Positions 24,996 through 58,127 of a stretch of DNA of 64,000 nucleotides are shown in pieces. Source of the DNA: a virus. Both the position numbers and the translations under genes were made by a program. The stretch is taken from positions 1 to 64,000 of IMG/VR virus record IMGVR_UViG_3300021171_000012, one strand, 5' to 3'. A model generated the notes under the pieces. It did not search any database. It was not told the origin of the DNA and saw only the letters and a list, made by a program, of their open reading frames with translations. How positions within the stretch are numbered: the stretch's first letter is position 1; the number at the start of each line of letters is the position of its first letter.

Positions 24996-25373
24996 ATGCC
25001 CGCCCAATTAGTTCTTTTCCTCGACACCGTCGGCGTTCTCCACTGCGAAGCGCCTGGCGCTAACGGATCGCGGCGCAAGGTCGATCTACCGTTCGATTTC
25101 GCGCAAGTAAATCCTGAGATCATGACTGAACTAAACGGACAGCTAGAAGCCGAACGCGATCGCAAACGCGCTGCGCTGCGCGAAATACAAAATCAGAACA
25201 TCAACTATGTCGCGGTTGAACACGGTAAACACCTAGCTAAGAAAATCTGGAAAAATGGCGAGCTCGCCTTCAGTCGCGCAATTGCCCGCAAGCTCGCCCT
25301 AGTCGAGTCGGAAAAGCCAGTTAAGAAAAACGCACCGCGCCACACGGCACCGGGTGTCGTTTTGGAGATCTGA
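24996..25373 (+). CDS. Small protein with C-terminal VLEI tail
   Basis: 125 residues. It begins with a strand pair (AQLVLFLDTVGVLHCEAPG), then a charged helix (ELNGQLEAERDRKRAALREI) and a Lys-rich region with HGKHLAKKIWKNGELAFS. It ends PGVVLEI directly at the stop codon. That last heptapeptide is shared in type with six other proteins in this window. No family recognised. It is the first gene behind the promoter at 24903-24931. Confidence 0.68.
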   Translation: MPAQLVLFLDTVGVLHCEAPGANGSRRKVDLPFDFAQVNPEIMTELNGQLEAERDRKRAALREIQNQNINYVAVEHGKHLAKKIWKNGELAFSRAIARKLALVESEKPVKKNAPRHTAPGVVLEI

Positions 25374-25374
25374 A

Positions 25375-25638
25375 ATGCTAATCTCCACTCGCGAAATCGC
25401 CGGCGAAGTTTTCTATGTTTTGACCGACCCAACACGCGGCATCTATCGCCTCGCGTCGCAGAGTCGCGCCGACGCTCGACGCACAATCCCGAAAGCACTC
25501 GCCGCGCCAAGTTCCGACTGGCTATCAGCGAGTCAATACCAAAAGGCGGTCGGAGTTCTTAGTCACGAGCGCAGCGAGTGCGCAGGCCGAGAAGTCTGTC
25601 GAGGAGTCTACCGCAATAACCCGATCCTAGAGATTTGA
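25375..25638 (+). CDS. Small protein with C-terminal ILEI tail
   Basis: 87 residues from the ATG at 25375, one base after the previous stop. MLISTREIAGEVFYVLTDPT, then a basic region with YRLASQSRADARRTIPKALA and SERSE-like Arg/Glu/Cys positions, ending NPILEI. Function unknown. A longer frame from 25354 would overlap the previous gene and lacks a ribosome site. Confidence 0.62.
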   Translation: MLISTREIAGEVFYVLTDPTRGIYRLASQSRADARRTIPKALAAPSSDWLSASQYQKAVGVLSHERSECAGREVCRGVYRNNPILEI

Positions 25639-25668
25639 CGAGCGCAGCGAGCACCTAAGAGGCTTAGA

Positions 25669-25917
25669 ATGTCCATCTTCACCAAGCGCCACTACATCTG
25701 GCTCGCCAGCGTCGGTCGAGACCAGATGACAGAAGCGAGAGCAGTCGGTGGAGCTAGCGGAGCTAGCGCGGTACTGATAAGTCTACTGACTCTTGCCGAC
25801 GCCCTCGCGAACGAAAGTCCCGACGGTTTCGATCGAGACTTATTTCTCGAAAACTGTGGAGTCTTTTCCTCAAACCCGGAGATGAGAAATGTCCACTCCA
25901 AAGGCACAGCCGATTAG
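25669..25917 (+). CDS. Small protein of unknown function
   Basis: 82 residues, MSIFTKRHYIWLASVGRDQM..., with an Ala/Ser-rich helix (ASAVLISLLTLADALANES) and DGFDRDLFLENCGVF near the end. The FDRxxFLxxC ending resembles short phage proteins with no known role. It overlaps the next gene by 29 bases. A short GAGCGCAGCGAG repeat lies between it and the previous stop. Confidence 0.6.
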   Translation: MSIFTKRHYIWLASVGRDQMTEARAVGGASGASAVLISLLTLADALANESPDGFDRDLFLENCGVFSSNPEMRNVHSKGTAD

Positions 25918-26131
25918 ACTCAGCCTATGGCGCCTTGTCAACGGCGCGGATCAGGTTGAGTACGACTACGGAAGCAACAACCACGAAACCAGCGTGGCAA
26001 TCGCTAGTTTAAATCTCGACTATCTAATGGCCGAGTCGGATCTCGACGCCCACACTATTTGCGACCTCGTTCGCCCGATCATGCTCGACCTTCAGCGCGT
26101 TTGGCTGGACTCTAAACGGAGGACAGTCTGA
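25889..26131 (+). CDS. Small acidic protein of unknown function
   Basis: 80 residues. MSTPKAQPIRLSLWRLVNGA, a loop with EYDYGSNNHETSV, and a helix with LDAHTICDLVRPIMLDLQRV. No family recognised. The stop overlaps the ATG of the AAA ATPase gene by one base (TGATG), so the two are probably translated together and could act together. Confidence 0.6.
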   Translation: MSTPKAQPIRLSLWRLVNGADQVEYDYGSNNHETSVAIASLNLDYLMAESDLDAHTICDLVRPIMLDLQRVWLDSKRRTV

Positions 26132-27774
26132 TGATCGGCGACAACCCTGCCGCGGAATTGTGGGATCATATCACCATACTATTGGGTGATAGTAATCTAA
26201 ATCCTAATACTCTGCAAGCCTCGGACCTCAGAGTTCGCCTCACTCTAAAGTCTGCAATCCGCCAATGGATAATCGCCAAGGGCGTCTCCGAGCGCACCGC
26301 GGCTGGAATGGGCGACGTCGGGCTTGCCAAGTGCGTTTCGATCGGCAATGTCTATATCAATGGCATTATCCGCCGCGAGGCGGAGGAACAGGACGGCCGG
26401 CGTAAAGTCCGCGGGGGCGATCGCTTCGGACGCAACGATGTTTTAGACTTAGACAGCCCACCCAAAGTTTTTAAGCCGGACGAAACTCCGAAACTCGGCG
26501 ATCTCCTTGGAACTCCGAAAGTCGAAAATGAGATCGAAAAACCGAAACCCCAATTCGATCTCGATGACCTAGCAAAGGCCGCCGATGCCGTTATCGCTCC
26601 CCGTATTCACGCAGCGACAGCGGCGCTCACAGGTTCAGTCGCGGAGGCAGTTAAGACCTATACACGCACTGAGATCGAGAGAATCGGTCTAGGCAATAAC
26701 TTATCTAAAGAGATCGAAGATCTGGTCGAGCGGTCTACGATCGCTGCGGTTGAGAAGCTAATGCCGCGAGCGATCGACTTAAGAATGCCCCACGGCGAAA
26801 ACCGTATCCTAAAAGCCGAACCGAGGCATCGAAAGTTCGACGTGATTCTCAAGTGGCTCTCAACCGGACAGCATGTTTATGCCGTTGGGCCAAAAGGCTC
26901 CGGTAAGACCCACATGGGAGTGCAGTTAGCAGAGGCGCTCGATCTAAAGTTCTATCCGATAGCGCAAGCGTTGACAAAGTACGACCTCAGCGGCTATACC
27001 AGCCCCACCGGCGAGTATATCAAGACGCTGATGCGAGATGTGATCGAGCATGGTGGTCTAGCTCTGATCGACGAAGGCGATATGTGGGCAGCAGCGGCAT
27101 TAGGCTTCCTAAATAGCGCGCTCGCGAATAACTTCATCGCCTTCCCCGACAAGGTTATCGAGGTCCACAAGGACTTCCGATGCCTGTTAGCGGCGAACAC
27201 TTTCGGAACCGGCGCCGATCGCCAGTATGTCGGCCGTAATCCCCTTGACGCCGCATCCCTCGACCGCTTTGCTTTCGAGGTTATCGACTACGACCCCGAT
27301 ATGGAAAGGCAGATATTCGGCCCAAGTGCGTGGCTCGACTATGTTCACCGAGTTCGCTCAGCGTGCAGTCAACTCAATCTTCCGCACCTAATTCCCTCGA
27401 TGCGTGCGATCTCAAAAGGACTAAAGGGCTATTCTGTCGATATGGATGCGGACTCGATAGCAGCAAGTTCAATCTGGATGGGCGCCGCGCAGGACACAAT
27501 CTCTAAGATCAAAAACATCGCCGGTGAGCCACCACGGGTTAAGGAAAAGCAAAACGTCGAATCTCCTATCAATAACGACTATTATACAATGCGGGACTTT
27601 AGAGACTTCGTTGTAAAGGATCAAATGATTGATGCAATCAAAGTTCTAAGAGTCCAGTTCCCCAATCTTGGCCTCAAAGACGCTAAAGACCTAACCGAGA
27701 ACTACCGCGACGGCCTTAAGACTATCGGCGATGTCTGCATAATCGCCGCGGAGAAGGAAAGGGCCGTCGCATGA
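26131..27774 (+). CDS. MoxR/CobS-like AAA+ ATPase with L7/L12-like C-terminus
   Basis: 547 residues. Residues 1-230 are a charged, partly helical N-terminal region. The AAA+ core has Walker A VGPKGSGKTHMG near residue 255, Walker B GGLALIDEGDMW near residue 305, sensor 1 FRCLLAANTFGTG and an Arg-rich SLDRFAFEV, all as in MoxR/CobS proteins. Residues 490-535 (MIDAIKVLRVQFPNLGLKDA, then KDLTENY) resemble the C-terminal domain of ribosomal L7/L12. CobS in bacteria is part of cobaltochelatase, but phage copies are usually remodelling ATPases. The DUF7192-like gene behind it is probably its partner. Confidence 0.85.
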   Translation: MIGDNPAAELWDHITILLGDSNLNPNTLQASDLRVRLTLKSAIRQWIIAKGVSERTAAGMGDVGLAKCVSIGNVYINGIIRREAEEQDGRRKVRGGDRFGRNDVLDLDSPPKVFKPDETPKLGDLLGTPKVENEIEKPKPQFDLDDLAKAADAVIAPRIHAATAALTGSVAEAVKTYTRTEIERIGLGNNLSKEIEDLVERSTIAAVEKLMPRAIDLRMPHGENRILKAEPRHRKFDVILKWLSTGQHVYAVGPKGSGKTHMGVQLAEALDLKFYPIAQALTKYDLSGYTSPTGEYIKTLMRDVIEHGGLALIDEGDMWAAAALGFLNSALANNFIAFPDKVIEVHKDFRCLLAANTFGTGADRQYVGRNPLDAASLDRFAFEVIDYDPDMERQIFGPSAWLDYVHRVRSACSQLNLPHLIPSMRAISKGLKGYSVDMDADSIAASSIWMGAAQDTISKIKNIAGEPPRVKEKQNVESPINNDYYTMRDFRDFVVKDQMIDAIKVLRVQFPNLGLKDAKDLTENYRDGLKTIGDVCIIAAEKERAVA

Positions 27775-27962
27775 CCGACAACGCTAACAGCGCGGTAATG
27801 TGGCGAGTGAACTATCATGCACCGCGTAGCAGACTAGAAAAATACGGAAGCGTTCTAGTTCTAGCTGAGCGGGCAGATGAGGCTATAAGGCAGACCATCG
27901 GTATGACATTAGCCTTAAAACTGGGCAAGGTAAAAATAATAAGTGCCGAGGTAGAGCCATGA
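27771..27962 (+). CDS. Small protein between ATPase and partner
   Basis: 63 residues, ATGA overlap at both ends. MTDNANSAVMWRVNYHAPRS, then a helix with LAERADEAIRQTIGM and a strand VKIISAEVEP. The compact alpha/beta pattern suggests a stable small domain. Unknown function; the coupled frame implies a role with the MoxR-like ATPase or the following gene. Confidence 0.62.
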   Translation: MTDNANSAVMWRVNYHAPRSRLEKYGSVLVLAERADEAIRQTIGMTLALKLGKVKIISAEVEP

Positions 27963-29053
27963 CCACCGACTGGCCAATCTGGAAAACCCGCTTAGGCCTA
28001 GTCCCAGATCAAGATAAGGGTCTTAAGCCGCAACCGAATGACGAAGAGGATCTCGACTTTGAAGATCAAGATCCTCTAGATGAGGACGGTGATGATCTAG
28101 ACCCGGATCTTGACGAGCAACGCGAGCAGACACCGCAACGTGGACAGCTAGATGATCCCCTAGAATGGGAAACATCAGTTATACCGTTCCCGACTAAGGT
28201 CGCCCTCCCCCCGTGCAACGCCCGCGACTTCAATTCGTGGAGCGAGTTCGTCGAAAGCACCACGGACGAATCATTAGTTGGTTGGAAAGGTCGCCGCGCT
28301 AGTCGCGATGAGTCGGACAAAAATCAAAAATCAAACCCATGGTCCGGGACCGCAACCTGGCAGCAAGCCGTCGACATGGCAACTAGGACAGGCTGGCCCG
28401 AAGGACGTAAGCTCTTAAGCGAAATGCTCGTTGCGATCAGTCCACGACCGGAGCCCTACAGGACACTAGAATATAGTGTCGCCGGCGCGTTCCCAATGGT
28501 CCCAAACTATTGCGCCGGCGATCCCGAGTGTATGGTTATAGATCCGGGGTCGGATCTTAGACACGCTAAGCCAATTATTCGGATCGACTACAATCACTGG
28601 GTAAGTGCCTATGTAACCCCGAAAGACATGATGCTCCGCGGCGCCGCGATAATTAGTCTCGCCGACAGTCTCGAGCGAACCGGCTTCAGCGTTGAGCTTC
28701 GGATTGTCGGAAACTCTCGCAGCCATTATTCTAGCAAGGAGTTCCGCTACTCTATAGTCTATAAGCGCGCTGGGGAGATACTAGACCTCGACCGTGCGGC
28801 ATTTGCAATCGCCCATCCGAGTTCGATGCGAAGACTAGCTTTTGCAATCCTCGAACAACACTACGAATGCGAACAGGCATTCTCCGTCGGCTACGGCCAA
28901 CCCATGTACGAGTCGAACGACAAGTCAAGCGACGCAATCTTCGTCCCTGGAAGTCGCGGCGGAGAGACACCAGAGTCTGCAAAAGCAGCGGTTGAGAAAG
29001 CCGCAGAAAGACTCCTTACCGAGATCCAAGAAAACCGAGAAGTAGGAGACTAG
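27959..29053 (+). CDS. DUF7192-like partner of phage MoxR ATPases
   Basis: 364 residues. After an acidic, low-complexity segment (residues 25-60, many Asp/Glu) comes the DUF7192-type pattern: TWQQAVDMATRTGWPEGRKL, CAGDPECMVIDPGSD, MLRGAAIISLADSLERTGFS, VELRIVGNSR and DLDRAAFAIAHPSSMRRLAF. In other phages such proteins are found with AAA/MoxR and CobT-like genes. No metal-binding MIDAS is evident. The exact role of the complex is unknown. Overlap with the preceding gene is ATGA. Confidence 0.72.
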   Translation: MTTDWPIWKTRLGLVPDQDKGLKPQPNDEEDLDFEDQDPLDEDGDDLDPDLDEQREQTPQRGQLDDPLEWETSVIPFPTKVALPPCNARDFNSWSEFVESTTDESLVGWKGRRASRDESDKNQKSNPWSGTATWQQAVDMATRTGWPEGRKLLSEMLVAISPRPEPYRTLEYSVAGAFPMVPNYCAGDPECMVIDPGSDLRHAKPIIRIDYNHWVSAYVTPKDMMLRGAAIISLADSLERTGFSVELRIVGNSRSHYSSKEFRYSIVYKRAGEILDLDRAAFAIAHPSSMRRLAFAILEQHYECEQAFSVGYGQPMYESNDKSSDAIFVPGSRGGETPESAKAAVEKAAERLLTEIQENREVGD

Positions 29054-29925: not shown

Positions 29926-30127
29926 CCGTGCTCAGTGTGCACTTTTTGCGCAGACGACCGACCCCGGCTACCATGACCCAAATACGGGAAACTGGAAAGC
30001 AAACGTCGCGCTCTCTGTCGTCGATGGCATAAGCCGCGGTCTTACGATCGCCGGGAACTTCCGACTTTGCATGGAGGCTCGGGGTTATGAGGCGGTTCAA
30101 GCAGGGGCAAACAATGTCCGACAGTGA
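29810..30127 (+). CDS. Small lipoprotein
   Basis: 105 residues. Residues 1-21 (MKPVSRTIVVVGAVLSSLAA) followed by Cys form a lipoprotein signal with lipobox LAAC. The mature part has ANIDRAQCALFAQTTDPG, VALSVVDGISRGLTIAGNF and RLCMEARGYEAV, similar in layout to small bacterial envelope lipoproteins with a final C-MxxRGY motif. It would be anchored in the outer membrane of an infected cell. Superinfection exclusion or envelope change are possible roles. aaggag precedes the ATG. Confidence 0.7.
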   Translation: MKPVSRTIVVVGAVLSSLAACAPTTYIRPGTPVQVANIDRAQCALFAQTTDPGYHDPNTGNWKANVALSVVDGISRGLTIAGNFRLCMEARGYEAVQAGANNVRQ

Positions 30128-30389
30128 AATCCCGGCTATCAACGAGGACCTAATTCGTCGCTATTTCGAGGCCGGCGACCTGAAGAACCTTCTCTCGATT
30201 TTTAACTTCCAACAACGATGCAAGAACCGAGCAGAAGAGCTTAGTCGGGCATATCTCGCCCAGATGGTCGTTCTCGGAAAGACTCTCGACGCTCTACGCG
30301 AGGGACTCAAGCCCGAAAGACCAGAGAAGTCTGAAGCGAAGAAACCGAAATCCGAAGCCCTGTCGAAGTCCCAAGTTCTCGACATCTAG
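30114..30389 (+). CDS. Small protein with C-terminal VLDI tail
   Basis: 91 residues from the ATG at 30114, which overlaps the lipoprotein stop. MSDSEIPAINEDLIRRYFEA, a helical middle (QQRCKNRAEELSRAYLAQMV) and a Lys/Glu/Ser-rich linker (KSEAKKPKSEALSK) that ends SQVLDI. The charged flexible linker before the shared tail suggests that the tail is exposed for binding. No family recognised. Confidence 0.65.
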   Translation: MSDSEIPAINEDLIRRYFEAGDLKNLLSIFNFQQRCKNRAEELSRAYLAQMVVLGKTLDALREGLKPERPEKSEAKKPKSEALSKSQVLDI

Positions 30390-31382: not shown

Positions 31383-31625
31383 ATGCCAAAGTCGCTAGAC
31401 CAAATGACCCCCCAGGAAGCATATAAGAAAGCCGAAGAACTGCGCAAATTCGGCATCGAATTACACCATTATGCAAAAGAGATCATGGGTCTAACAGACC
31501 CTGAGATCCTAACCGCCTGCGTTCAGATTATAGACAAAGTTATCAGCGAGCTTGCTGGAAATCACCCTCTCGAAGCGATCATGCGAGTCGCAACTGCAGA
31601 GATAATCGTCCGAGGACATATCTAA
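31383..31625 (+). CDS. Small helical protein, unknown
   Basis: 80 residues from the ATG at 31383 (MPKSLDQMTPQEAYKKAEEL), with aaggac upstream. Three helices are visible, the last with DKVISELAGNHPLEAIMRVA. No family recognised. First gene of the transcript from the 31326 promoter. It overlaps the next gene by TAATG. Confidence 0.6.
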   Translation: MPKSLDQMTPQEAYKKAEELRKFGIELHHYAKEIMGLTDPEILTACVQIIDKVISELAGNHPLEAIMRVATAEIIVRGHI

Positions 31626-32023
31626 TGAATCGCGAAGCGGAACTCGCTAAACTCGCCGCAGATCCCGATCCTGCTGTCCGACGCTGGGCCGAGATCGACA
31701 TGCTACCCGATGAACAAGAAGCATGTTCCGTTATTCATAGCAACGGGACTATTAGGCTCGTTGTTCTAAGATCCAACAGAATTGCGATCTTCGGCCAGGA
31801 CGGTCAGCTCTATAAGATCCTCGATGACGCACCCTCGACTGAAGAACTTCGCCGGCTCTCGGAAGAGTTACGAATCAAGCTAAGCCAAAAAAGTGCCGCC
31901 TGGTTCTACGGAGAGCCATCAGACTCAGAGTTCAAACGCGATCTCAAACGGGCCGAACGCGCAGAGCAAGCACAGACTAGACGCCGAAACATACCATCAC
32001 CGGCTCAAGTTCTCGACATTTAA
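31625..32023 (+). CDS. Small protein with C-terminal VLDI tail
   Basis: 132 residues. MNREAELAKLAADPDPAVRR resembles the start of a HEAT-like repeat. A beta section (TIRLVVLRSNRIAIFGQDGQ) and a charged helical end (EFKRDLKRAERAEQAQTRRR) follow, ending PAQVLDI. The charged linker before the tail is like that of the 30114 gene; otherwise the two proteins are unrelated. Function unknown. Confidence 0.65.
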   Translation: MNREAELAKLAADPDPAVRRWAEIDMLPDEQEACSVIHSNGTIRLVVLRSNRIAIFGQDGQLYKILDDAPSTEELRRLSEELRIKLSQKSAAWFYGEPSDSEFKRDLKRAERAEQAQTRRRNIPSPAQVLDI

Positions 32024-32039: not shown

Positions 32040-32309
32040 GTGCCCACTAAACATCTTCAGCTATCCGAGCTAATAGATCGTGAAGCTCGCTTTATCGCAA
32101 CCGAGATCCTCGAAGCTCGATTGACTAAATTCGATCTCCCACTACCGAAAGAGTCTGCACTCGACATTCATATTGATGCAATTCTAGCTGCAAAGCCGGA
32201 ACTCTATGAGCAGGCAAAAACTCGTGTCGAAGCTCGAAAGGACGCCTTTAGCGAGGCCCTTCGCGCGATCGACATAGAAGTCGAGATCGCCCAAGTGTTG
32301 GACATCTAA
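32040..32309 (+). CDS. Small protein with C-terminal VLDI tail, GTG start
   Basis: 89 residues from a GTG at 32040 with aagga 8 bases upstream; an earlier start would overlap the previous gene by more than 100 bases. HLQLSELIDREARFIATEIL and helical segments with AAKPELYEQAKTRVEARKDA, ending EIAQVLDI. The last six residues equal those of the preceding gene although codons differ (GTG TTG against GTT CTC). No known family. Confidence 0.6.
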   Translation: MPTKHLQLSELIDREARFIATEILEARLTKFDLPLPKESALDIHIDAILAAKPELYEQAKTRVEARKDAFSEALRAIDIEVEIAQVLDI

Positions 32310-33435: not shown

Positions 33436-33756
33436 ATGACCGACACCCCAAATCCAAATCTCAAAGCAGCTTTAGTCGGATCGCTGAGATTGATAGAGTC
33501 TGAGTCGGAACCGCAAAGTGGAACCGACGAATCCCCGCTTCGCGAGGCTACAGTCGACAGTGTAGACTATTTCCTCGACCGGATTAATCAAAAGCTCATT
33601 GACGGAATGCCAGTTCCGAATCAGGACTTAGAGCAGCTAGCGAACTTCTATCGAGCACAAGCTCTAAAGTGGGCTCAAGAGGAGGACATTAAGAAGACAA
33701 AGTCCCAAACCAAGCGCGAAAAGAAATTCGCCCCCGGAGAGATTATGGACATATAA
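33436..33756 (+). CDS. Small acidic protein with C-terminal IMDI tail
   Basis: 106 residues. An acidic flexible first part (RLIESESEPQSGTDESPLRE), a helix with SVDYFLDRINQKLIDGM, another with DLEQLANFYRAQALKWAQEE, a Lys-rich linker (KKTKSQTKREKKF), and the ending APGEIMDI. The tail belongs to the [VI][LM][DE]I group. No family recognised. Confidence 0.63.
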   Translation: MTDTPNPNLKAALVGSLRLIESESEPQSGTDESPLREATVDSVDYFLDRINQKLIDGMPVPNQDLEQLANFYRAQALKWAQEEDIKKTKSQTKREKKFAPGEIMDI

Positions 33757-34061: not shown

Positions 34062-35189
34062 ATGTCAATGTCTGATCTAATTTCGACCATCGAAGAAGTA
34101 AAAACCGAAACAGACTCGGCTCTTCGGCCCGTAAACACCGCATTCTCAACCAAGGTGCCGAATTTGCAGCTATATCTAGACTCAACAAGCCTTGGTGATT
34201 TCAAAAGCTGCGCCCAACTTTATAAATATAGGATCATAGACGGTTATTCCTCACCCTATAGCTCGACCGATTTATTCTTCGGAATTTTATTCCACTCTGC
34301 AACCGAGGTCTATGAACGCTCTCGCGCGTCGGGCATCCCTCACGACGAAAGTGTTATTGATGCTCTCCGTCACGCGGTCATGGCAACCTGGGACAACGAA
34401 AAAAAGCGCCCTTGGACTTCAGATGTCACAGACAAGAGCAGGAACACGCTCCTACGAACTATAGTTTGGTATTTAGACACCTTTAAGGACGAAAATCTTA
34501 AGACGGTAGTATTTCCCAATGGCGATCCTGCAGTCGAAGTCTCGTTTCGCTTCGATACCGGGATTCGTACAGAGGCTAAATTCGAGTGTCCAGTTTGTTT
34601 TGGAGCTGGTGCTGCCAAAATTAGTGGAGCTCGGAAGTCCGAAGATAGTCCTGGCGACATCGAATTTACTATAGAGCAATGTACTGAATGTAACGGAACC
34701 GGAGCTGTTGGTGAACCGTTTTACCTCTGCGGGCATCTCGACCGTGTAGTCTACTGGAACTCCGAACTATGGATCATGGACAAGAAGACAACGCGATACG
34801 CACTTGATGATAACTACTTTCGCCAGTTCTCCCCCGATAATCAGATGAGTCTCTATAGTGTCGCCGGCGCCGTGACACTGGAGTCTGAAGTCGGTGGGCT
34901 TATCATTGACGGATGTCAAGTGTTAGTCACAGGATCTCGCTTCCGACGCAAAACCATCCCACGCTCCCCCGAGCAGCTTGAGGAATGGCTCGTTAGTCTA
35001 AAACATTGGCTCCACTGGCTTGAGTATTGCGCCAAGAACGATTATTGGCCGCAGAACGAACGAAGCTGCGGCTACGGTAATCGCCAATGCCAATTCCGAC
35101 CCGTCTGCTCTAGTGACCCAAGCACTCGGCAAGAAATGCTCGACGGGATGTACGTTAGAAGGACTTGGGATCCCCTAATTCCGAGATAG
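34062..35189 (+). CDS. Cas4/RecB-like PD-(D/E)XK exonuclease with DnaJ-type zinc insert
   Basis: 375 residues. The RecB-like fold shows an early SLGDFKSCAQLYKYRI, a helix with LFFGILFHSATEVYE, and the active-site strands LCGHLDRVVYWNSELWIMDK followed by KTT (GxxD ... DxKT). Cysteines in SCAQLY and in CGYGNRQCQFRPVC give a Cas4/AddB-type iron-sulfur cluster. Between strands, residues 175-225 insert two CxxCxGxG motifs (CPVCFGAGAA and CTECNGTGAVG) like the DnaJ zinc finger. Such phage nucleases work with a Sak4-like ATPase, which is encoded 212 bases on. Confidence 0.83.
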   Translation: MSMSDLISTIEEVKTETDSALRPVNTAFSTKVPNLQLYLDSTSLGDFKSCAQLYKYRIIDGYSSPYSSTDLFFGILFHSATEVYERSRASGIPHDESVIDALRHAVMATWDNEKKRPWTSDVTDKSRNTLLRTIVWYLDTFKDENLKTVVFPNGDPAVEVSFRFDTGIRTEAKFECPVCFGAGAAKISGARKSEDSPGDIEFTIEQCTECNGTGAVGEPFYLCGHLDRVVYWNSELWIMDKKTTRYALDDNYFRQFSPDNQMSLYSVAGAVTLESEVGGLIIDGCQVLVTGSRFRRKTIPRSPEQLEEWLVSLKHWLHWLEYCAKNDYWPQNERSCGYGNRQCQFRPVCSSDPSTRQEMLDGMYVRRTWDPLIPR

Positions 35190-35401: not shown

Positions 35402-36451
35402 ATGCCCGGACTAATCGACCCCAGTTCCGAACTCGCAAAGATTCTCCTTATTGGCGATCAGGGCGACGGAAAGACCGGAGCAAAAGCGGCGCTTATAGCG
35501 ATGGGTTACAAGCTCTTAATGATAGACACAGATCGTGGCTTCAAGATCCTCAGGAGCCTATTAACCGACCCACACTATCCCTACGCCGCGTTTATGAAGA
35601 AGCACGGAATCAACCCCGCTGAGCCTGGTAGAATCTCCTACATCCCCATCGACGTTCCGATCGACTTCACTGATGTTAGCGTAAACCGCAAAGGCCGTGC
35701 AGTAAATTACTCCGTTCTCGGCCCAACCTCCTCCGCCGCGTGGGAGACCGTAACAAAGCTTCTCAAAGAATGGAAAGACACCTCCGACGGAAAAGCGATC
35801 TCCCTCGGCGGGATTAATGACTGGGGACCGGATACGGTTTTAGACTTCGACACGATGTCTACTCTCGCCGAGCTTGCCAAATACTGGATGCAAGACATGA
35901 ACGGACATTTAGGTGCGTTCGAGGACGATCACGGTCGAGACAGCGGCGGCGCGCAAGAACTAATCATGAGGTTAATGACAAAGTTAACCAACGACGCCGT
36001 GAAGTGCAACGTGATAGTCACAGGGCACATTAAGTGGGTTGACATGTCGAACGACGTTCCCCAAGGTATCGAGGAACGAATTAGGGAAAAGAAAGCCATC
36101 GACGCTCAAGGCTTCCCGGCAGTAATTGGCAAAGCCACCTCTCCGTATATCGGCAAGAAGTTCAATGACGTCTTTATCGTTAAACGGGAGGGAAACGGAA
36201 GCAGTTTAACCCGAAAAATCTACTCTGTTCCAACAAACAACACAAGCGCAAAAAACTCTGTATGGCTCGAACCATCCTATCCACTATCCACGGGCTTAGG
36301 CGAGATTTTCTGCGCTCTGCAATATAAAGATCCACCCGTTGAACTCATAAAGGCCATCCGTGGCACAACCTCTACTGGGAAGGACACTGACGTAGCTACT
36401 TCGGGTTCTTCCCCCGTAGCGAAATCCGGCTTCGGATTTCGACCTAACTAA
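35402..36451 (+). CDS. Sak4-like RecA-fold ATPase
   Basis: 349 residues. Walker A LLIGDQGDGKTG near residue 20, Walker B-like region VLDFDTMSTLAEL, a later VIVTGHIKWVD with the polar residue of the RecA core, and a Ser/Gly-rich tail. The size and features match the Sak4 group of phage single-strand annealing and recombination ATPases. Neighbours upstream (Cas4-like nuclease) and downstream (SSB-like) form the usual Sak4 neighbourhood. Confidence 0.8.
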   Translation: MPGLIDPSSELAKILLIGDQGDGKTGAKAALIAMGYKLLMIDTDRGFKILRSLLTDPHYPYAAFMKKHGINPAEPGRISYIPIDVPIDFTDVSVNRKGRAVNYSVLGPTSSAAWETVTKLLKEWKDTSDGKAISLGGINDWGPDTVLDFDTMSTLAELAKYWMQDMNGHLGAFEDDHGRDSGGAQELIMRLMTKLTNDAVKCNVIVTGHIKWVDMSNDVPQGIEERIREKKAIDAQGFPAVIGKATSPYIGKKFNDVFIVKREGNGSSLTRKIYSVPTNNTSAKNSVWLEPSYPLSTGLGEIFCALQYKDPPVELIKAIRGTTSTGKDTDVATSGSSPVAKSGFGFRPN

Positions 36452-36479: not shown

Positions 36480-36974
36480 ATGGCAAACGAAACAGTCGAT
36501 CTTCGCGATCTCCTCACCGCACCACTGTCGAACTTTCCCGACAAACCCAACCTCCCCGCGAACAAGTCTTTCTACGGGAAGATCCTCAACATGGAGGCAA
36601 CACATAGCAAGGTCAAAGGAACTCCGGGTTTTCACGTTTCGGTTCGTCTGACCGATCCCGGAAGCGATGTCACCCCGAGCGACCTCCAGAAACTCAGCGA
36701 CGCCGGGCTGAGTCTCGCCGACTATGAGGTCGGTTCGGACTTCTGGCTCACCCCCGGATCAATGACCTTCCTTCGCCGGTTCCTGACCTCTATCGGAATC
36801 TCGGAGAATGTCTCAACAGCGGAGGCCCTTCATCTCGACGAGCACTTTAACCCGACTTCCGAGACCCGCGACATCGTTCGCGGGCTCGACGTGGCGATCA
36901 AAACTCCACCAGCAGACGCCGAAGGCCGCGTCTTCACAAACAATCTCGACATCATCTACGGCGTTAAGCGTTAG
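36480..36974 (+). CDS. Putative single-stranded DNA-binding protein
   Basis: 164 residues: LPANKSFYGKILNMEATHSK, TPGFHVSVRLTDPGSDVTPS, YEVGSDFWLTPGSMTFLRRF and a C-terminal strand FTNNLDIIYGVKR. The beta-barrel-like start and place directly behind the Sak4-like ATPase resemble the phage SSB or DUF2815-like partners. No acidic SSB tail is present. The call rests mostly on context. Confidence 0.58.
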   Translation: MANETVDLRDLLTAPLSNFPDKPNLPANKSFYGKILNMEATHSKVKGTPGFHVSVRLTDPGSDVTPSDLQKLSDAGLSLADYEVGSDFWLTPGSMTFLRRFLTSIGISENVSTAEALHLDEHFNPTSETRDIVRGLDVAIKTPPADAEGRVFTNNLDIIYGVKR

Positions 36975-38139: not shown

Positions 38140-39510
38140 ATGGCTGAGCTTCTAGACCCAAACTCGATTGTCGTACAACATCGCCAGCGCGGGGAGCTTG
38201 GTGACCTATCTAGTCTTGAGACTTCGATCAAAGAGATCGGCCAGATTCAGCCCATCGTAGTTCGTCGAGAGAACGACTTAGTCGTCTTGATGGTCGGTGG
38301 AAGGCGCTTAAAAGCCTGTGCGAATTTAGGCATAGCCGTTCGGGCAGAATTTTGGGAAGACCTAGATCCTATTTCGGCAAAAATAATCGAACTAGAAGAG
38401 AACATTCGTCGAGATGACATTTCTTGGCGCGACCGAGCAAAGGCAACGGATGAGATTCACCGGCTATTCAAGCTAACCGAACCCGACTGGACCTTACAAA
38501 AGACCGCAAAAAGACTAGGTGAGACTCCAACCTGGATCTCGAGAATCCTAACAGTGTTTAAGAACCTAGACTCACCGCTCTTAACTAACTCTACTGGAAT
38601 CGATAACGCCTTCTCTATCCTACAGACTGCCGCCGAACGCCGCGCCGCGAGTATCGTCAACGATATCATCCAGGCTGGGACGAATATCTTTAAGCAGGAA
38701 CCCGAGAAGGAACTAGTCAATGTCCCTATGGGAGATAACCCTGTTATTGAACTCGATAAACCTGATCGCCCAGATAATGATCCTAGCCCTATTAATATAC
38801 AAACGTCACCGCAACCGATACAGGTAATTCTAAATATAGACTTTACGAAATGGATTTTAGAATACACCGGACCTAAATTCAACCTAATTCACTGTGATTT
38901 CCCCTTCGACGTCAAATACGACAGCTACGCAAAGAGTGTAACATCGAACAAGACTGAGGACTATGATTTCAGTGGTTTCTGGCCCCTTTTAGACTGCCTC
39001 TGCGACAATCTAAACACAATCTGCTCCTATTCAGCACATATAATGTTTTGGTTCTCAATGAAATTCTACAGCGAGACAAAGTCAAGACTAGAGCGCGCCG
39101 GTCTCTATGTGCATGACCATCCGCTAGTTTGGCACAAGACCGACAATTCTGGCATAATCCCCGGTCGCGATAACGCATTTCCTCGAAGGACTTACGAAAC
39201 CGCGTTCCTATGTAGTCGCGGCAAGCGCCCGCTAATCCGATCTCAGTCTAACATCTACGGCGCGCCGATGGCATCCGGCTCACTTCATCCAAGTCAAAAA
39301 CCGGAGCCAGTCTTAAACCACTTCCTCTCGATGCTTATTGACGAAACAACCGACTTCCTCGATCCAACCTGTGGAAGTGGAACGGCGATTCGCTCTGCGG
39401 AATACTGTGGCGCGAGATCCGTTCTCGGACTGGAACTCGACCCTAACTACGCTGCAAGTGCTGAGGCGGCAACTCAGAACGCAAGAAGACTGCGAGGACT
39501 AAAATTATGA
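38140..39510 (+). CDS. ParB-like domain fused to a beta-class DNA methyltransferase
   Basis: 456 residues. Residues 10-190 are ParB/sulfiredoxin-like and HTH: SIKEIGQIQPIVVRRENDLV, MVGGRRLKACANLG, LEENIRRDDISWRDRA, TAKRLGETPTWISRIL. Residues 245-450 are a DNA methylase of beta order: motif IV NLIHCDFPF first, then LVWHKTDNSG and SLHPSQKP, and motif I FLDPTCGSGT last. Motif IV is DFPF rather than DPPY, unusual but it still has Asp and an aromatic. It would methylate adenine or cytosine amino groups, perhaps protecting phage DNA from host restriction. Confidence 0.85.
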   Translation: MAELLDPNSIVVQHRQRGELGDLSSLETSIKEIGQIQPIVVRRENDLVVLMVGGRRLKACANLGIAVRAEFWEDLDPISAKIIELEENIRRDDISWRDRAKATDEIHRLFKLTEPDWTLQKTAKRLGETPTWISRILTVFKNLDSPLLTNSTGIDNAFSILQTAAERRAASIVNDIIQAGTNIFKQEPEKELVNVPMGDNPVIELDKPDRPDNDPSPINIQTSPQPIQVILNIDFTKWILEYTGPKFNLIHCDFPFDVKYDSYAKSVTSNKTEDYDFSGFWPLLDCLCDNLNTICSYSAHIMFWFSMKFYSETKSRLERAGLYVHDHPLVWHKTDNSGIIPGRDNAFPRRTYETAFLCSRGKRPLIRSQSNIYGAPMASGSLHPSQKPEPVLNHFLSMLIDETTDFLDPTCGSGTAIRSAEYCGARSVLGLELDPNYAASAEAATQNARRLRGLKL

Positions 39511-40706
39511 GAGCCGTCTTAGTCGGCGAAGCCTATGGACGACATGAAGCTCAATTCCAACACGCTCTCGTTGGTCCGTCGGGAAGAGAACTCACCCTCG
39601 AAATGGGAATCGCCGCGCTCGCCCCGTATATGAAAGTTCTCTGTCGACGTTGTAAGACCAACACGGAGTTCATCGACGGCTTTTGCCGACACTGTCGCGA
39701 GCGGATTTGGCCAAACGAATTTGACTTAATGGAACATTGGAAGCTACTAAGATCCGATCTCAAGATCGCAGTTACGAATGTCTTCAACACACAGCCCCCA
39801 AATAATGACCTAGGAAACTTTTTCGGCTATGAAGCACAGACTGAAATGCCAGGATGGAAGGCAAGTCGAAAGACCGGAGGAAGCCACTTACTCGCAGAGC
39901 ACTTTCACCATTTAAAGCGACTATGGAACGAACTCGAAGAGCTTGACCCGAACCTAATAGTCTGCCTCGGTAACGCCGCGTGTTGGGCGGTCTTAGGACA
40001 AACTAAAATCACCGCGCTACGCGGAACGGTGACTTTCAGCGAGCGGTTGAAGAAAAAGGTGTTGCCGACATTTCACCCTGCTGCCGTTTTGCGTCAGACT
40101 CCGATGCGTGTTTCGGTAATAGCGGACCTTCAGAAAGCCTCTCGCGAGATCGAGTTTCCTGAAATAGTTCGACCTAAGCGCTGGATTACAATACCTGCAC
40201 CGAACGAATCTGGACTAATCGAGATCCAAGAGTGGCTCGCTAGAAATGCCTTTTCCTATTCAAACGACATTGAGACGATTCGCAATCAGATTTCCGTAAT
40301 TGGTTTTAGTCTATCAAATAGCGATGCGCTAGCCATTCCGTTCCGTGATGCAAAAATGGACAAAGGAAAGATAGTTGATGTTGGAAAAATCGCTGCCTCG
40401 ATTGGTTTTCCCGATAATGGAATAAACTATTGGCCTACGTCAGAACTCGAAGTCAAGGCATGGAGCCTTGCTAAGGCGGGAGTAGAGTCTAATAAGGGAA
40501 AAATATATCAGAATGGGGTGTTTGATATTTCTTACTTTCTACAGATGGGAATCATCCCGCGAAATGTTAAAGACGATACAATGCTTTGGCACCATTCTGA
40601 GTATTTAGAACTGCCGAAAAGTCTTGGCTTCCTCGGTTCGATATATGCAAACGATATTCCGTGGAAGCAGATGAGTCGAAGTGAGAGCTTGAAGAGGGAT
40701 GAGTAA
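39507..40706 (+). CDS. Uracil-DNA-glycosylase-like domain fused to the 5' part of a PolA exonuclease
   Basis: 399 residues. Residues 1-215 have the UDG fold: VGEAYGRHEAQFQHALVGPS near the start, a zinc ribbon (CRRCKTN ... CRHCRER), NLIVCLGNAACWAVLG and LPTFHPAAVLR. Residues 235-399 hold the 3'-5' exonuclease: Exo I FSYSNDIETIRNQISVIGFS and Exo II QNGVFDISYFLQMGI. The gene ends LKRDE, before Exo III. The rest of the exonuclease and the polymerase lie at 41099-42613. ATGA and TAATG overlaps bind it to its neighbours. Confidence 0.82.
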   Translation: MRAVLVGEAYGRHEAQFQHALVGPSGRELTLEMGIAALAPYMKVLCRRCKTNTEFIDGFCRHCRERIWPNEFDLMEHWKLLRSDLKIAVTNVFNTQPPNNDLGNFFGYEAQTEMPGWKASRKTGGSHLLAEHFHHLKRLWNELEELDPNLIVCLGNAACWAVLGQTKITALRGTVTFSERLKKKVLPTFHPAAVLRQTPMRVSVIADLQKASREIEFPEIVRPKRWITIPAPNESGLIEIQEWLARNAFSYSNDIETIRNQISVIGFSLSNSDALAIPFRDAKMDKGKIVDVGKIAASIGFPDNGINYWPTSELEVKAWSLAKAGVESNKGKIYQNGVFDISYFLQMGIIPRNVKDDTMLWHHSEYLELPKSLGFLGSIYANDIPWKQMSRSESLKRDE

Positions 40707-41098: not shown

Positions 41099-42613
41099 AT
41101 GCCCGTAATTGCCTTTCACGAGACTGAAATTCGTGATGCAAATCAGGCGATCTACAACGGCGGAGATTGTTGCCTAACGTTTGAAATCGACGAGGCAAGA
41201 CAAAGGCTTCGACAAAACGACACTCTGATCTACGACTTCGAGCGGGCAATGCAGGCTCCAGCAATGGAGATGATGCTACGCGGATTTCGTGTCGACATAG
41301 CAGAGCGTGAGAAAGCAATTCTAGCAACCCATTCTAGAAAGGACTCAAATGAAGAAGTCATTAAAACTATTATAACCGCCATAATGGGCTCATATAACGA
41401 AAAACTCCCGAACTCCCCAACACAATTACAGCATCTTTTCTACGACATAATGAGAATCCCCCCAATAGAACGACATATAAATGGCGAAACAAAGCGCCCG
41501 ATGAACCGCGAGACGCTAGAGCGACTAGAGACCCGAGACAAGTGGGCCGCACCGATTATCAACGCAATATTGCGTCATCGAGATTGGACAAAAACCCTCC
41601 AAGTTCTCGAAACCGAAATCGACTCCGATTGGCGCTGGCGCTGCTCATACAACATCGGTGGAACTTCGACCGGAAGGTGGAGTAGTTCCAAATCCCCATT
41701 CCTGTCCTATAATGAAGAGACGCAAAAATGGAAGCAAGTAGGAAATAACTTTCAGAATATAAACGAGGAACTCCGTCGAATCTTCATTCCCGATCCAGGA
41801 TTTAAACTCTATGGAATCGACAAGGCTCAAAGTGAAGCCCGCGACGTCGGATGGTTCTGTGGCACAATATTGGGAGACTGGAGTTATCTTGACGCTTGTG
41901 AGTCAGGAGACTTACATACATACGTTACTCGCCTTGTCTATCCAGAATGGTCGTGGACAGGAGATATTAAAAAGGACCGTCAGTTATCTGAACGGCGCTT
42001 CTATAGACTATTCACTTATCGTGATGCCAGTAAGCGCCTCGGACATGCAACGAACTACCTTGTCACCCCTAATGAAGCCTCTCGCCAAATCCGAATCCCC
42101 CTAAACCTGGTTGAAGACTTCCAACGTCGCTACTTTGCCGCCTTTCCCTGTATTCAGCGAATGCACCAATGGGTGAGTCAGCAACTTCAACGAAGCCGTT
42201 TCCTTGTCAATTCCTTTGGTCGGCGCCGCGACTTCTTTGACCGACCAGAAGACCGTGAGACACTAAAATCTGCCATTGCATATTTATTCCAAAGTGCCAC
42301 CGGAGACTGTCTAAATCTGGGCCTATGGCGCCTTTGGCGAAAGATGGAAAGCAAGATCCAGATCCTAGCACAGCTTCATGATGCAGTTTATTTCCAGGCT
42401 CCAATATCGAACGATAGCGAGGAGCAAAACCTACTCCGGGAATCCCTTAAGCTTGTCGAAATAACACAGCGAGATCCGAAGTCGGGAAGAACGATGACAA
42501 TTCCCGGAGAGATAGTCGGGGGTTTTAATTGGGCACACCGCTTTAGACTCCTAGAAGATGGTACGAGAGATGAATGGAACCCGCGTGGCTTAAGTGAAAT
42601 AAAAATAGCATAA
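41099..42613 (+). CDS. Family A DNA polymerase, C-terminal part
   Basis: 504 residues. The start carries Exo III of the exonuclease: NQAIYNGGDCCLTFEI. The polymerase domain follows: motif A FKLYGIDKAQSEARDVGWFC (DxxQxExR), motif B YRDASKRLGHATNYLVTPN (RxxxKxxxxxxxY type with a Lys/Gly pattern), and motif C LAQLHDAVYFQAP (HDxxY). Thumb and fingers are of the T7/PolA kind. It needs the UDG-exonuclease product of 39507 for proofreading. It is the main candidate replicase. Confidence 0.88.
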   Translation: MPVIAFHETEIRDANQAIYNGGDCCLTFEIDEARQRLRQNDTLIYDFERAMQAPAMEMMLRGFRVDIAEREKAILATHSRKDSNEEVIKTIITAIMGSYNEKLPNSPTQLQHLFYDIMRIPPIERHINGETKRPMNRETLERLETRDKWAAPIINAILRHRDWTKTLQVLETEIDSDWRWRCSYNIGGTSTGRWSSSKSPFLSYNEETQKWKQVGNNFQNINEELRRIFIPDPGFKLYGIDKAQSEARDVGWFCGTILGDWSYLDACESGDLHTYVTRLVYPEWSWTGDIKKDRQLSERRFYRLFTYRDASKRLGHATNYLVTPNEASRQIRIPLNLVEDFQRRYFAAFPCIQRMHQWVSQQLQRSRFLVNSFGRRRDFFDRPEDRETLKSAIAYLFQSATGDCLNLGLWRLWRKMESKIQILAQLHDAVYFQAPISNDSEEQNLLRESLKLVEITQRDPKSGRTMTIPGEIVGGFNWAHRFRLLEDGTRDEWNPRGLSEIKIA

Positions 42614-42634: not shown

Positions 42635-43822
42635 GTGTCAGATTGGATTGAAGAATTTATCGCCAAGACGACTTCGATACGGAGCCCTGAGATTTTCCGT
42701 CTTTGGTCTGCTATTGGAACCGTCGCGGCAGCACTCGAACGCCGTGTTTGGACTTCGACGGACGTTGCACCACTCTATCCGAACCTCTTTACGATCTTAG
42801 TAGGACCGCCAGCTTGTGGAAAGACTAATTCGGTTAAGGAATCACGAAAGATGTTAGCCCCCATAACGGGTATGAAGCTCGGACCGGACAACCCAACTCC
42901 GGCCTCGTTTATGGACGAATTAAGCAAAGCAACAGTCTTTGGTCTGAACGGTCAGAATAGCGGCCCAAGCGCGGCGATGACCGTCTTATGCGAGGAATTT
43001 GGGGTTCTAATTCCAAAGTATGATGACTCTTTCTTTGCAACATTAAGCAAACTCTATGACAACCCTTCAATGTACACTGCTCCACGGCGGACCTCAGTGT
43101 CGATTAAGATCGAAAACCCGACAATTAATATCCTTGGCTGTGCAACGCCGCCAGCTATAGGTAGTCTGCCCGAAAGTGCTTGGGGCGAAGGTTGTACGTC
43201 GAGAATAATATTCCTCTATGGAACCAAGCCAAACTCCCACCGTGATGCGTTTAAGAAGCGCATAGACTCCGATATGAAAGAGCTCCAAAATCGAATCTCC
43301 GAGATTTTCTCCGATATTCATGGTGAGTTCGAGTGGGAAGAACCAGCGCGCTTAGCCTATAATCATTGGTATAATGACGAACAGATGGCCCCAGTCCCAA
43401 CCTACGGTCGCCTAGTAAACTACAATGGTCGTCGCGATACCCATGTTATGAAACTCTCCATGATTTCCGCAGTTAGCGCGGAGCACGGACTTACGATTAC
43501 CCTAGACGATTTCATCCGCGGGCGAAAGTGGCTTTTAGACGCGGAGCAGACTATGCCCGATGTCTTCCGAGCTATTACACAGAAGTCTGATGCGCAGCTT
43601 CTCCAGGATCTACACTATTGGATGTACACGGAATATTCTAAAGTCGCCCGTGACAAGCGAAATCCAATTCCCGACGGGGAGGTCTGGAAGTTCCTTGAAA
43701 ACAAGACAACTAGTGACAAAATCCCCGGACTCTTCAAGGCCGCGGAGTCCTCGGGTCGAATGAGAAAGAACTTTGGAACAAACTCCTGGATACCAAACCC
43801 GTTTAATGGGGTCGAGGAATGA
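42635..43822 (+). CDS. DUF3987-like P-loop ATPase, candidate replicative helicase
   Basis: 395 residues with a GTG start at 42635. Walker A LVGPPACGKTNSVKE near residue 55, Walker B-like MTVLCEEFGVLIPK, and later NILGCATPPAIGSLPESAWG, as in DUF3987 or VirE-like primase-helicase proteins of phages. C-terminal part with HTH-like KFLENKTTSDKIPG. With the CHC2 protein it could form the primase-helicase. The upstream in-frame ATG would add few codons and has a poor context. Confidence 0.75.
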   Translation: MSDWIEEFIAKTTSIRSPEIFRLWSAIGTVAAALERRVWTSTDVAPLYPNLFTILVGPPACGKTNSVKESRKMLAPITGMKLGPDNPTPASFMDELSKATVFGLNGQNSGPSAAMTVLCEEFGVLIPKYDDSFFATLSKLYDNPSMYTAPRRTSVSIKIENPTINILGCATPPAIGSLPESAWGEGCTSRIIFLYGTKPNSHRDAFKKRIDSDMKELQNRISEIFSDIHGEFEWEEPARLAYNHWYNDEQMAPVPTYGRLVNYNGRRDTHVMKLSMISAVSAEHGLTITLDDFIRGRKWLLDAEQTMPDVFRAITQKSDAQLLQDLHYWMYTEYSKVARDKRNPIPDGEVWKFLENKTTSDKIPGLFKAAESSGRMRKNFGTNSWIPNPFNGVEE

Positions 43823-56180: not shown

Positions 56181-56181
56181 A

Positions 56182-57537
56182 TCAGTTAATAATCTCCACA
56201 AGAAACTCATTAAGTGCAATGTCAGCAGCGACGGTAGTAGAATTGCCTGTTATTGCAACTAATATAGCTCCGCTCTCGGTTGCGGTGGTCAGTGTCGGAG
56301 CCTGATAGCCTAAATGCGCTACGCCAGCGCCTTTGCCATTCGAGGTTGCTATCTGGGTATTCGACGCTGCTGCGCCGTATTTGAAAACATCGGCAGAAAT
56401 AAACCAACCCCCAGTCGCACCGCTAGTTGTAATGGTTCCAGTGTCTTCGACAGTCGTTCCCCCCGTAACGGCGCTACCAAGTACTGCTGTTGTCGCATTA
56501 AAGATTATTTTAATTCGCTTATTGTTCGCATTCGACCCCAGAGATCCCTTCGCTGATATACAAACGCCGCGCCCTGCAACGTCGAAAACATTCGCCGGAA
56601 TGCTATATACAGCGATAACGTTGTCATTACCTGTCGACCCTGGAACAACGCCGGCGCCGCTGATCGAGCGCGCCAAGGTTCCGATCAACGATACTGGCGC
56701 TACTCCTGACGAGCCAGCCCCTGGCAACAAGGAAGATGCTAATAGCCTAATCGAGATCGCCCCAGGTCCGGTGTAGGTAACTAAGAATAGACTGGTGCTA
56801 TTTCCAGGAAATACACTTGCAACACCGGATAGCGTTACCCCGGAACCCGCTGCAAGAGTTCCATTATACGGAGAAGTGTTTATATATGTAAGTATCCACG
56901 ATTGTCCGATTGACGGATTCGGTATTGCAGCAATTATATTCGCAGCAGTGTCTGTTGTGTCAGTAAATGGTCCGTTTGGCCCCGATCGAGTAATAACTGC
57001 TCCAACTATAGCAGCGGCAGTCAAAGTCCCAGCACCGACAGTAGTAATAGCCGTATTCATATCCGCCGCGCCAACGGTATTAGCCGCAATGGCCATTCCC
57101 GTCATTGAAACTGCGGCGGCGCCAGTATAGGACAGCAGGAAAATTCCGGTCGAATTTGCAGGAATTACTGAAATACCCGCAAGAGTGACTCCCGAGCCTC
57201 CAACTATGGTTTGGTTAAACGGGGTCGTGTTATTGATAAAAACAAGCCAAGCGGTGTTAAATGGGGACTCGGGAGCTAGAGTTCCAATAATATTGGTCGC
57301 ACTGTCAGTCGTATCAGTAAAGGCCGCCGATGGGCCGGTTCGAGTTATGAAACCCCCTACTATTCCCGCCGCCGACAATGTTCCATTAGACCCCGTTGCG
57401 ATAAACGTATTAACCTGTGGTGGGAATGAATCCGCCAGCGCAGCGATCTGTTTTGTCGTTATCATAGACGGCGAGATAACGCCGCCGCTGGCGGTTTCTG
57501 AGATAGTCTGTTCTGTTCCGAGTAATGGTCCGGCCAT
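56182..57537 (-). CDS. Fibre-like protein with a duplicated ~95-residue domain
   Basis: 451 residues from the ATG at 57537 (gggagaag upstream). Two related segments stand in tandem: FITRTGPSAAFTDTTDSATN with GSGVTLAGISVIPANSTGIF, and VITRSGPNGPFTDTTDTAAN with GSGVTLSGVASVFPGNSTSL. A C-terminal beta domain (GNDNVIAVYSIPANVFDVAG) follows. The tandem domain layout fits a tail fibre or a decoration protein. Immediately upstream lies the homing cassette. Confidence 0.68.
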   Translation of the reverse strand: MAGPLLGTEQTISETASGGVISPSMITTKQIAALADSFPPQVNTFIATGSNGTLSAAGIVGGFITRTGPSAAFTDTTDSATNIIGTLAPESPFNTAWLVFINNTTPFNQTIVGGSGVTLAGISVIPANSTGIFLLSYTGAAAVSMTGMAIAANTVGAADMNTAITTVGAGTLTAAAIVGAVITRSGPNGPFTDTTDTAANIIAAIPNPSIGQSWILTYINTSPYNGTLAAGSGVTLSGVASVFPGNSTSLFLVTYTGPGAISIRLLASSLLPGAGSSGVAPVSLIGTLARSISGAGVVPGSTGNDNVIAVYSIPANVFDVAGRGVCISAKGSLGSNANNKRIKIIFNATTAVLGSAVTGGTTVEDTGTITTSGATGGWFISADVFKYGAAASNTQIATSNGKGAGVAHLGYQAPTLTTATESGAILVAITGNSTTVAADIALNEFLVEIIN

Positions 57538-57553
57538 GTTAGGCTTCTCCCGA

Positions 57554-57580
57554 CTAAAGAGCAAACTCAGGCGGCGGAAT
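57554..57580 (-). repeat. Relic of the 3' end of the DUF2163-like gene
   Basis: These 27 bases encode IPPPEFAL and a stop, the same peptide as the end of the tail gene at 58143-58169. They lie behind the homing endonuclease gene instead of the tail gene. The nucleotide differences are at third codon positions. Confidence 0.85.
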
Positions 57581-57581
57581 T

Positions 57582-58127
57582 TTAAATGTCTAATACAATG
57601 CCGGGTATGGCCTTGCTTATACGTACTCGTGAAGATTTCGTAGTAGCTAATACATTATCAATCTCATCGTATTCTCTATATAGGCGAATAGTGGTTAGAG
57701 CCTCCGCTAATTGTGCAACATCTGCCCACAACGCAGGATTACTCTGCTTCAATCCACCATGTATGTCCCTACTGCAACATGCAAGTACCGCCAGTCTCCA
57801 TATAGCAAAATCTGAAGCCTTTTTTGCACGAAGCGGGTACTTATCAAATATATCTACTAGAACTCTGCAATCTTCCCGGGCGCTAACTGCATACACAACT
57901 GTTGGATTCAAACGACTATGATCTCTATCTGCGTATATATTGCCTACCCCCACTTTATTACGTACTTCCACTAAAATCTTATAATCGTCTGCGCGCAGAC
58001 GAAGTTGAAAACTACATGTATATCCATATCTATTCTTTCCACGCTCAACGCGTCGAGTTATACTGAAACTACCTTCTCCATCGGTAAATCCTGCAAACCA
58101 ATGAAAAAATGCATCATCTTCAGACAT
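57582..58127 (-). CDS. LAGLIDADG homing endonuclease with VLDI tail
   Basis: 181 residues. FHWFAGFTDGEGSFSI is a LAGLIDADG motif with both catalytic-type acids. YTCSFQLRLRADDYKILVEV and LVDIFDKYPLRAKKASDFAI are typical of the single-motif, homodimeric bacterial and phage type. It ends PGIVLDI. The gene is free-standing and is flanked by two copies of the 3' end of the DUF2163-like gene, so its target is probably the end of that gene. It would cut phages that lack the cassette and so spread it. Confidence 0.88.
   Translation of the reverse strand: MSEDDAFFHWFAGFTDGEGSFSITRRVERGKNRYGYTCSFQLRLRADDYKILVEVRNKVGVGNIYADRDHSRLNPTVVYAVSAREDCRVLVDIFDKYPLRAKKASDFAIWRLAVLACCSRDIHGGLKQSNPALWADVAQLAEALTTIRLYREYDEIDNVLATTKSSRVRISKAIPGIVLDI

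Follow-up and report, generated by a model that had tools for sequence, protein, structure and literature searches.

Docking tails in described systems and probable docking tails in one soil phage

In phage T4, the polymerase gp43, the sigma factor gp55, and the co-activator gp33 carry highly similar, interchangeable C-termini of hydrophobic and acidic residues on divergent linkers, and these C-termini dock on the clamp gp45 (PMC2988020, PMC7892883). In the T4 record, the three tails read SLDFLFG, SLDFLYEAND, and TLDFLL, and a gp45-binding motif is also carried by the DNA ligase gp30. Comparable short peptides are the bacterial beta-clamp motif (QLxLF or QLxLxL), which in Pol IV lies at the extreme C-terminus, and the acidic tails of the single-stranded DNA-binding protein SSB (DDDIPF) and of T7 gp2.5 and gp4. 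Common docking tails on phage proteins are an already known kind of feature. Here, we describe a C-terminal peptide of the form VL[DE]I on otherwise dissimilar proteins of a soil phage (labelled G000 among the genomes compared). The stretch analysed, called the window below, comprises bases 1-64000 of the 70,983-base IMG/VR virus record IMGVR_UViG_3300021171_000012, and the 7 kb of the record past its end were also examined. The genome is that of a tailed phage with a split polymerase, in which a Pol A-type polymerase is separate from a UDG/exonuclease part; its further replication, recombination, and nucleotide genes encode a Sak4-like ATPase, a PD-(D/E)XK nuclease, a DUF3987 primase/helicase-like protein, and a ribonucleotide reductase.

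An initial annotation of the window had claimed seven proteins ending in [VI][LM][DE]I, and all seven are present. They are given here with an eighth, out-of-sample case and one degenerate form:

24996..25373, + strand: family A protein, 125 aa, tail PGVVLEI (motif codons 25359-25370)
25375..25638, + strand: 87-aa protein, tail NNPILEI (motif codons 25624-25635)
30114..30389, + strand: family E protein, 91 aa, charged linker, tail KSQVLDI (motif codons 30375-30386)
31625..32023, + strand: family C protein, 132 aa, charged linker, tail PAQVLDI (motif codons 32009-32020)
32040..32309, + strand: family D protein, 89 aa, tail IAQVLDI (motif codons 32295-32306)
33436..33756, + strand: family B protein, 106 aa, tail PGEIMDI (motif codons 33742-33753)
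57582..58127, - strand: LAGLIDADG homing endonuclease, 181 aa, tail PGIVLDI (motif codons 57585-57596)
69382-70161, - strand, beyond the window: free-standing HNH-type endonuclease, the eighth case, terminating IKHSSVLEI
22577..23176, - strand: family S/D protein, 199 aa, degenerate tail DAVMEL (motif codons 22580-22591)

The strict motif was read off the data before testing, and the HNH gene at 69382, found after the motif had been defined, lies outside that reading. At 115 called gene ends (genes were called by simple longest-open-reading-frame selection, with no trained gene finder), 8 matches were seen against 0.005 expected, far above chance as had been estimated. Within proteins of this genome the motif occurs once per 22,694 positions, and none of 399 shadow (unselected) reading frames of at least 40 aa carries it. 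Among 2,594 proteins of 36 related contigs there were again 8 matches, every one in this genome, against 0.13 expected; neither in this genome nor across the contigs did internal positions reach the C-terminal match rate. That the tails arose by chance, or by shared ancestry of a few gene ends, was already disfavoured and is scarcely credible. Such an origin could draw on a pattern defined after inspection, on the distant paralogy of families D and S, and on the 14 nucleotides common to two tails, but it is opposed by the size of the excess and its independent eighth case, by the different folds of the carriers (LAGLIDADG, HNH, and helical families), and by the concerted switch of tails between genomes described below.

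The claim that the codons of the tails differ was borne out except for CAAGTTCTCGACAT, the 14 nucleotides that genes 30114 and 31625 have in common; because the codons differ, an origin of the tails as a DNA-repeat or ribosome-binding signal was rejected. The carriers are mostly unrelated, as had been stated, although not strictly so, since 32040 and 22577 fall into one distant profile family (families D and S). As for the looser endings proposed at the outset, VMEL of gene 22577 is accepted as a tail because relatives of 22577 bear lineage tails (members of the merged family terminate SAADLL, TELDL, and IDIDDLF), while AAVEI (24212) and WEEI (23826) gained no support.

The 20 residues upstream of the tail in the eight proteins are rich in K/R/E/D/P/S/Q (59%, vs 38% genome-wide) and poor in hydrophobics, in agreement with the charged flexible linkers first noted. 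In family B, the one family modelled, AlphaFold places helices at residues 40-51 and 62-92, and the confidence of residues 93-106 drops to a pLDDT of about 50, so the tail is predicted to be disordered; a comparison of this family with annotated phages gave zero matches. The LAGLIDADG domain of gene 57582 spans residues 12-112 (Pfam E 1e-19), and alignments with its homologues in Rhodobacter and Mycobacterium phages stop at residue 153 or 120, short of the tail. Neither tagged homing endonuclease (57582, 69382) had a homologue among the viral contigs searched. The least certain tail bearer is gene 25375, for which no homologue was detectable. A GAGCGCAGCGAG repeat occupies 25560-25665, within and right after the 3' end of this gene, and the C-terminal part of the protein may be a repeat insertion. 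Amid the cluster of tailed genes lies a stand-alone HIRAN-domain protein (29366-29707), which was also found in 14 related contigs.

Lineage-specific tails in related phages

Relatives were gathered by polymerase identity (30-71%), and larger contigs were taken up to about 60 kb. In the phage collection, Caulobacter phage Kuura was the only relative with a named host, and a scan of genome contigs returned distant metagenome-assembled matches and one distant cultured genome, nothing else. The first relatives examined had no VLDI; each bore instead a different peptide common to several of its own proteins. The tails observed were as follows:

G003/G002: (LD)LDL, on up to six proteins
G006: ADESIL, ADESVL, ANEDIL, on four proteins
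G004: VKDLGL, IEDLGL, VEDMGL (pattern [VI][EK]DLGL), on four proteins
G021: SDEDLGI
G015: LSDIGL, LADIGL, LEDIGL
G024: EEIEF, KDMEF, ADLEF
G030: LDLEI, TLELDI
G031: AADLL, AEDLI
G010: AIDIDLDL
G032: VIEIEIP, AIEIEIP, VIDVEIP
G017: SVADLL, SVADIL
G023: ELSPEDFV, ELSPSDFLPD, ELSIEEFIK

Across the clade, the generic C-terminal pattern [DE][LIM][GDEN][LIF] was seen 44 times against 1.8 expected, and in a tree of five core proteins even the near relatives G000, G003, G010, and G032 bear different codes. The initial annotation had proposed looking for relatives that keep these proteins without a tail; most related phages retain the proteins, each with its own tail. Orthologues of the family B protein (33436) occur in 17 genomes, nearly all with the tail of their own lineage, and family 20 is tailed in 10 of 10 genomes. 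In families A, C, and E, too, the orthologues have a tail whose sequence changes with the lineage. A family A homologue in G003 (L017:2072-2785) terminates ILDLDL, family E homologues terminate LDLDLDL, IDIDLDL, and VIEVEIGDI, and family C homologues end in LELDLDL or AIDIDLDSLL and also carry AIEIEIP. In family D the endings AMDLDL and AIDIELG are found, and VIEIEIP is also carried.

An earlier comparison of tails in the same and in other genomes was partly circular, as the tails had been pre-selected, and it was superseded by a scan of 702 family pairs, each with at least four genomes in common, in which the last six residues were compared within and across genomes and tail similarity was not used. 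For family B with family 20, the mean BLOSUM score was 17.6 in the same genome vs 0.2 in other genomes (permutation p=0.002, the lowest value the test can give), whereas the runner-up pair showed a difference of 7.9 (p 0.056). Control windows 6 to 30 residues inside the proteins gave zero to two weak, scattered pairs each. The C-termini of these two families thus co-vary genome by genome, and as families B and 20 are not homologous, their common lineage-specific ending must be kept up by selection on a common feature.

In G017, in G032, and in the G003 member of family B, the motif is separated from the C-terminus by 3 to 20 residues (SVADLLTSEE, VIEIEIPEE.., VLDLDDLDFDAPASEQ). Since the motif may be non-terminal, a free carboxylate is not strictly needed, which fits a short linear motif. 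The tails are real, far above chance, concerted within genomes, and partly non-terminal.

The tails also extend to mobile genes and proteases. In G000, both the LAGLIDADG and the HNH endonuclease end in VL[DE]I, and the HNH endonuclease of G023 (HNH_3, E 1e-11) bears the local form ELSPSDFLPD. SprT-like metalloproteases have the local tail as well, LDLDL in G003 and VKDLGL in G004; phage proteins of this type with a local tail lie at L016:15104-15493 and L022:6145-6696.

A putative docking hub and the alternatives to it

Like T4, this phage has several unrelated proteins with a common acidic-hydrophobic tail on a flexible linker, and, as in the gp45-binding motifs, the short peptide stands at or near the C-terminus. 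The wording is close too, the T4 tails resembling SLDDLGL, TLEDLGL, and NIDDLFSE of this clade; those of Kuura read LNIDDLFSE and LSIDDLLSTL. The clamp-binding tails of T4 are the best mechanistic parallel. Unlike T4, (i) neither a gp45-type nor a bacterial clamp was found in these phages by profile searches (PF02916 and PF00712 unmatched in 22 records, PF02767 in 12), (ii) the replicative polymerase has no motif, (iii) up to nine carriers occur here, homing endonucleases among them, and (iv) the code has moved far more, with near relatives differing strongly here while RB69 gp33 and gp55 keep LDFLL and LDFLY. Because no clamp is recognisable in these phages, we do not assign them to the T4 system.

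The tails share with the bacterial beta-clamp motif hydrophobic anchors with small or acidic neighbours, but they do not conserve its defining glutamine, and they change from one phage lineage to the next. Like the SSB and T7 tails, they place acidic residues ahead of a hydrophobic-x-hydrophobic C-terminus, and DDLGL, EEIEF, and NDDLDF come close to the SSB tail. The statement that the peptide is neither an SSB tail nor an ssrA tag is true of the exact peptide; in the clade as a whole, the tails are acidic-hydrophobic after the fashion of the T4 clamp-binding ones, and some, such as DDLGL and EEIEF, also resemble SSB tails. Differences from the SSB tail are the many non-SSB carriers, the lack of a tail on the phage's own OB-fold SSB-like protein (36480), a motif that can be internal to the tail, the absence of an acidic run from VLDI and LDLDL, and the absence of I-P-F. 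In some relatives, small Pfam-less proteins with SSB-like endings (DDEIPF, NEIPF, DDEMPF, DDIPF) are found at L153:2677-3096, L163:5678-5980, L131:3930-4430, and L011:1018-1338. The EAR-type LxLxL motifs of plant repressors include an LDLDL peptide that acts as a docking strand, but they belong to a eukaryotic co-repressor system, and the resemblance is taken as convergence only.

By analogy with T4, VL[DE]I is probably a short linear docking motif on flexible linkers for one common hub per phage, which would co-evolve with its tags; docking itself, the single hub, and the nature of that hub are what we infer from the pattern. At least eight proteins, namely two homing endonucleases and six small proteins from the early region, would be tied by the peptide to a single hub protein, whose peptide pocket would differ between phage lineages, so that all tails of one phage would change together (VLDI in G000, LDLDL in G003, ADESIL in G006, [VI][EK]DLGL in G004). 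The earlier interpretation, that the C-terminal tail is under selection as a docking tag for one shared partner, is supported to this extent, having withstood the tests on the internal match rate and on tail-less relatives. The hub would most likely be a phage-encoded replication or recombination protein: the non-structural proteins that remain in nearly all tail-bearing relatives are replication and recombination proteins, including the OB-fold protein 36480, and homing endonucleases would profit from tethering to replicating or recombining DNA. The candidates are:

34062..35189, + strand: PD-(D/E)XK nuclease, nearly universal among tail-bearing relatives
35402..36451, + strand: AAA_24/Sak4-like ATPase
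36480..36974, + strand: OB-fold, SSB-like (DUF669-related) protein, no acidic tail, terminating NNLDIIYGVKR
39507..40706, + strand: UDG-like/exonuclease part of the split DNA polymerase, ending SLKRDE
41099..42613, + strand: family A DNA polymerase, ending GLSEIKIA
42635..43822, + strand: DUF3987 primase/helicase-like protein

The OB-fold protein is modelled by AlphaFold with a pLDDT of 92, and its best PDB match is the plasmid protein PrgE (8s4s, E 1e-4); its gene adjoins that of the Sak4-like ATPase. Four further candidates were set aside. The CobS/MoxR-like AAA+ protein 26131 is missing from most tail-bearing relatives and is ruled out as a general hub, the ParB-methyltransferase 38140 and the ribonucleotide reductase are each missing from several (some of them fragment contigs), and a phage-encoded clamp found no match in the profile searches, although these phages may have a very divergent one.

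Several observations weigh against a common docking hub. The profile searches detected no sliding clamp of bacterial or T4 type, and a crude test of tail type against core-protein divergence singled out no core protein as the partner (the top partial correlation was 0.38, for the 21537 family, with 0.14 for Pol A). G008 and G009, two distant relatives, possess these replication genes too, but no visible tail. Some homologues are also tail-less, for instance an HNH relative and the family A member in G017 and, in G006, the family D member with its ending QLISL.

That no phage clamp was detected bears on the main rival, in which the docking partner would be a replisome protein of the host, chiefly its sliding clamp DnaN or the tau subunit of its clamp loader, and the tails would differ between phages because their hosts differ. 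These phages use a family A polymerase with no own clamp detected by profile, and clamp-binding hydrophobic C-terminal peptides are known in bacteria, for example in Pol IV and at the C-terminus of Pol III alpha. Transposases of mobile elements reportedly bind the host clamp, which would parallel the tagged homing endonucleases. This explanation is nevertheless unlikely: the glutamine of the bacterial motif is not conserved, as noted, and the DnaN pocket is well conserved in bacteria, making it an improbable driver, among close relatives, of codes as different as VLDI in G000 and LDLDL in G003.

The AAA+ protein and the position of the motif likewise bear on regulated stability, with the tail acting as a degron or as a protective tail for a protease or AAA+ unfoldase. 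Hydrophobic C-terminal residues are often protease signals, and a MoxR/CobS-like AAA+ is encoded at 26131-27774, but its patchy distribution among tail-bearing relatives, a motif that in several of them stands ahead of the C-terminus, and the expectation that host proteases would not select one private code per phage lineage make a stability signal quite improbable. Where the tailed genes lie speaks to encapsidation, by which the tail would direct its carriers into the capsid, to be injected together with the DNA. Such signals exist in other phages, a lineage-specific scaffold or portal receptor could co-vary, and the tailed family of 22577 sits near head genes. Most tailed proteins are encoded in the early/replication region, though, and homing endonucleases and SprT-like proteases are atypical of virions, so this explanation must be judged at least as improbable as a stability signal.

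Neighbouring genes and the biology of the tails

Other features of the region were recorded alongside the tails. In nearly all relatives, the UDG/exonuclease half (39507-40706) has a conserved [KR]RDE at its end, and this ending recurs on one or two small reading frames next to it in G017 and L089 (GESLKRDD, SLKRER, PMKRDE; L111:9610, 9817, 10001; L089:3576, 4519), as if gene ends had been duplicated by insertion. At 26131-29053, the MoxR/CobS-like AAA+ with a weak ribosomal L7/L12 C-terminal-like segment is followed by a 63-aa reading frame and a DUF7192 protein, and the pair of AAA+ and DUF7192 proteins is present in some relatives only. At 38140-39510, a ParB-like N-terminal domain is fused to an N6/N4 DNA methyltransferase, an arrangement present in 26 of 36 relatives.

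A limited literature search for common C-terminal motifs among unrelated phage proteins returned no account of this clade, nor of a lineage-private code that is rewritten on up to nine proteins at once, occurs on homing endonucleases, and operates without a known clamp. We tentatively suggest that this soil-phage clade, with one isolated relative (on Caulobacter), may use a private peptide address code, in which a non-clamp hub recruits unrelated proteins by lineage-specific tags, the tags are rewritten together as the pocket changes, and homing endonucleases adopt the resident code. The hub would perhaps be the tail-less OB-fold SSB, inverting the usual logic of the SSB tail.

Most small early phage proteins have no known function, and a common tail read as a client label turns them into a testable interaction network; it also makes further clients recognisable, phage by phage, in the sequence itself. 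With up to nine tags switched in concert between near relatives, these phages offer a natural series on how a peptide-pocket code changes when many ligands have to follow, and the tagged homing endonucleases suggest selection on mobile genes to plug into the machinery of the resident phage.

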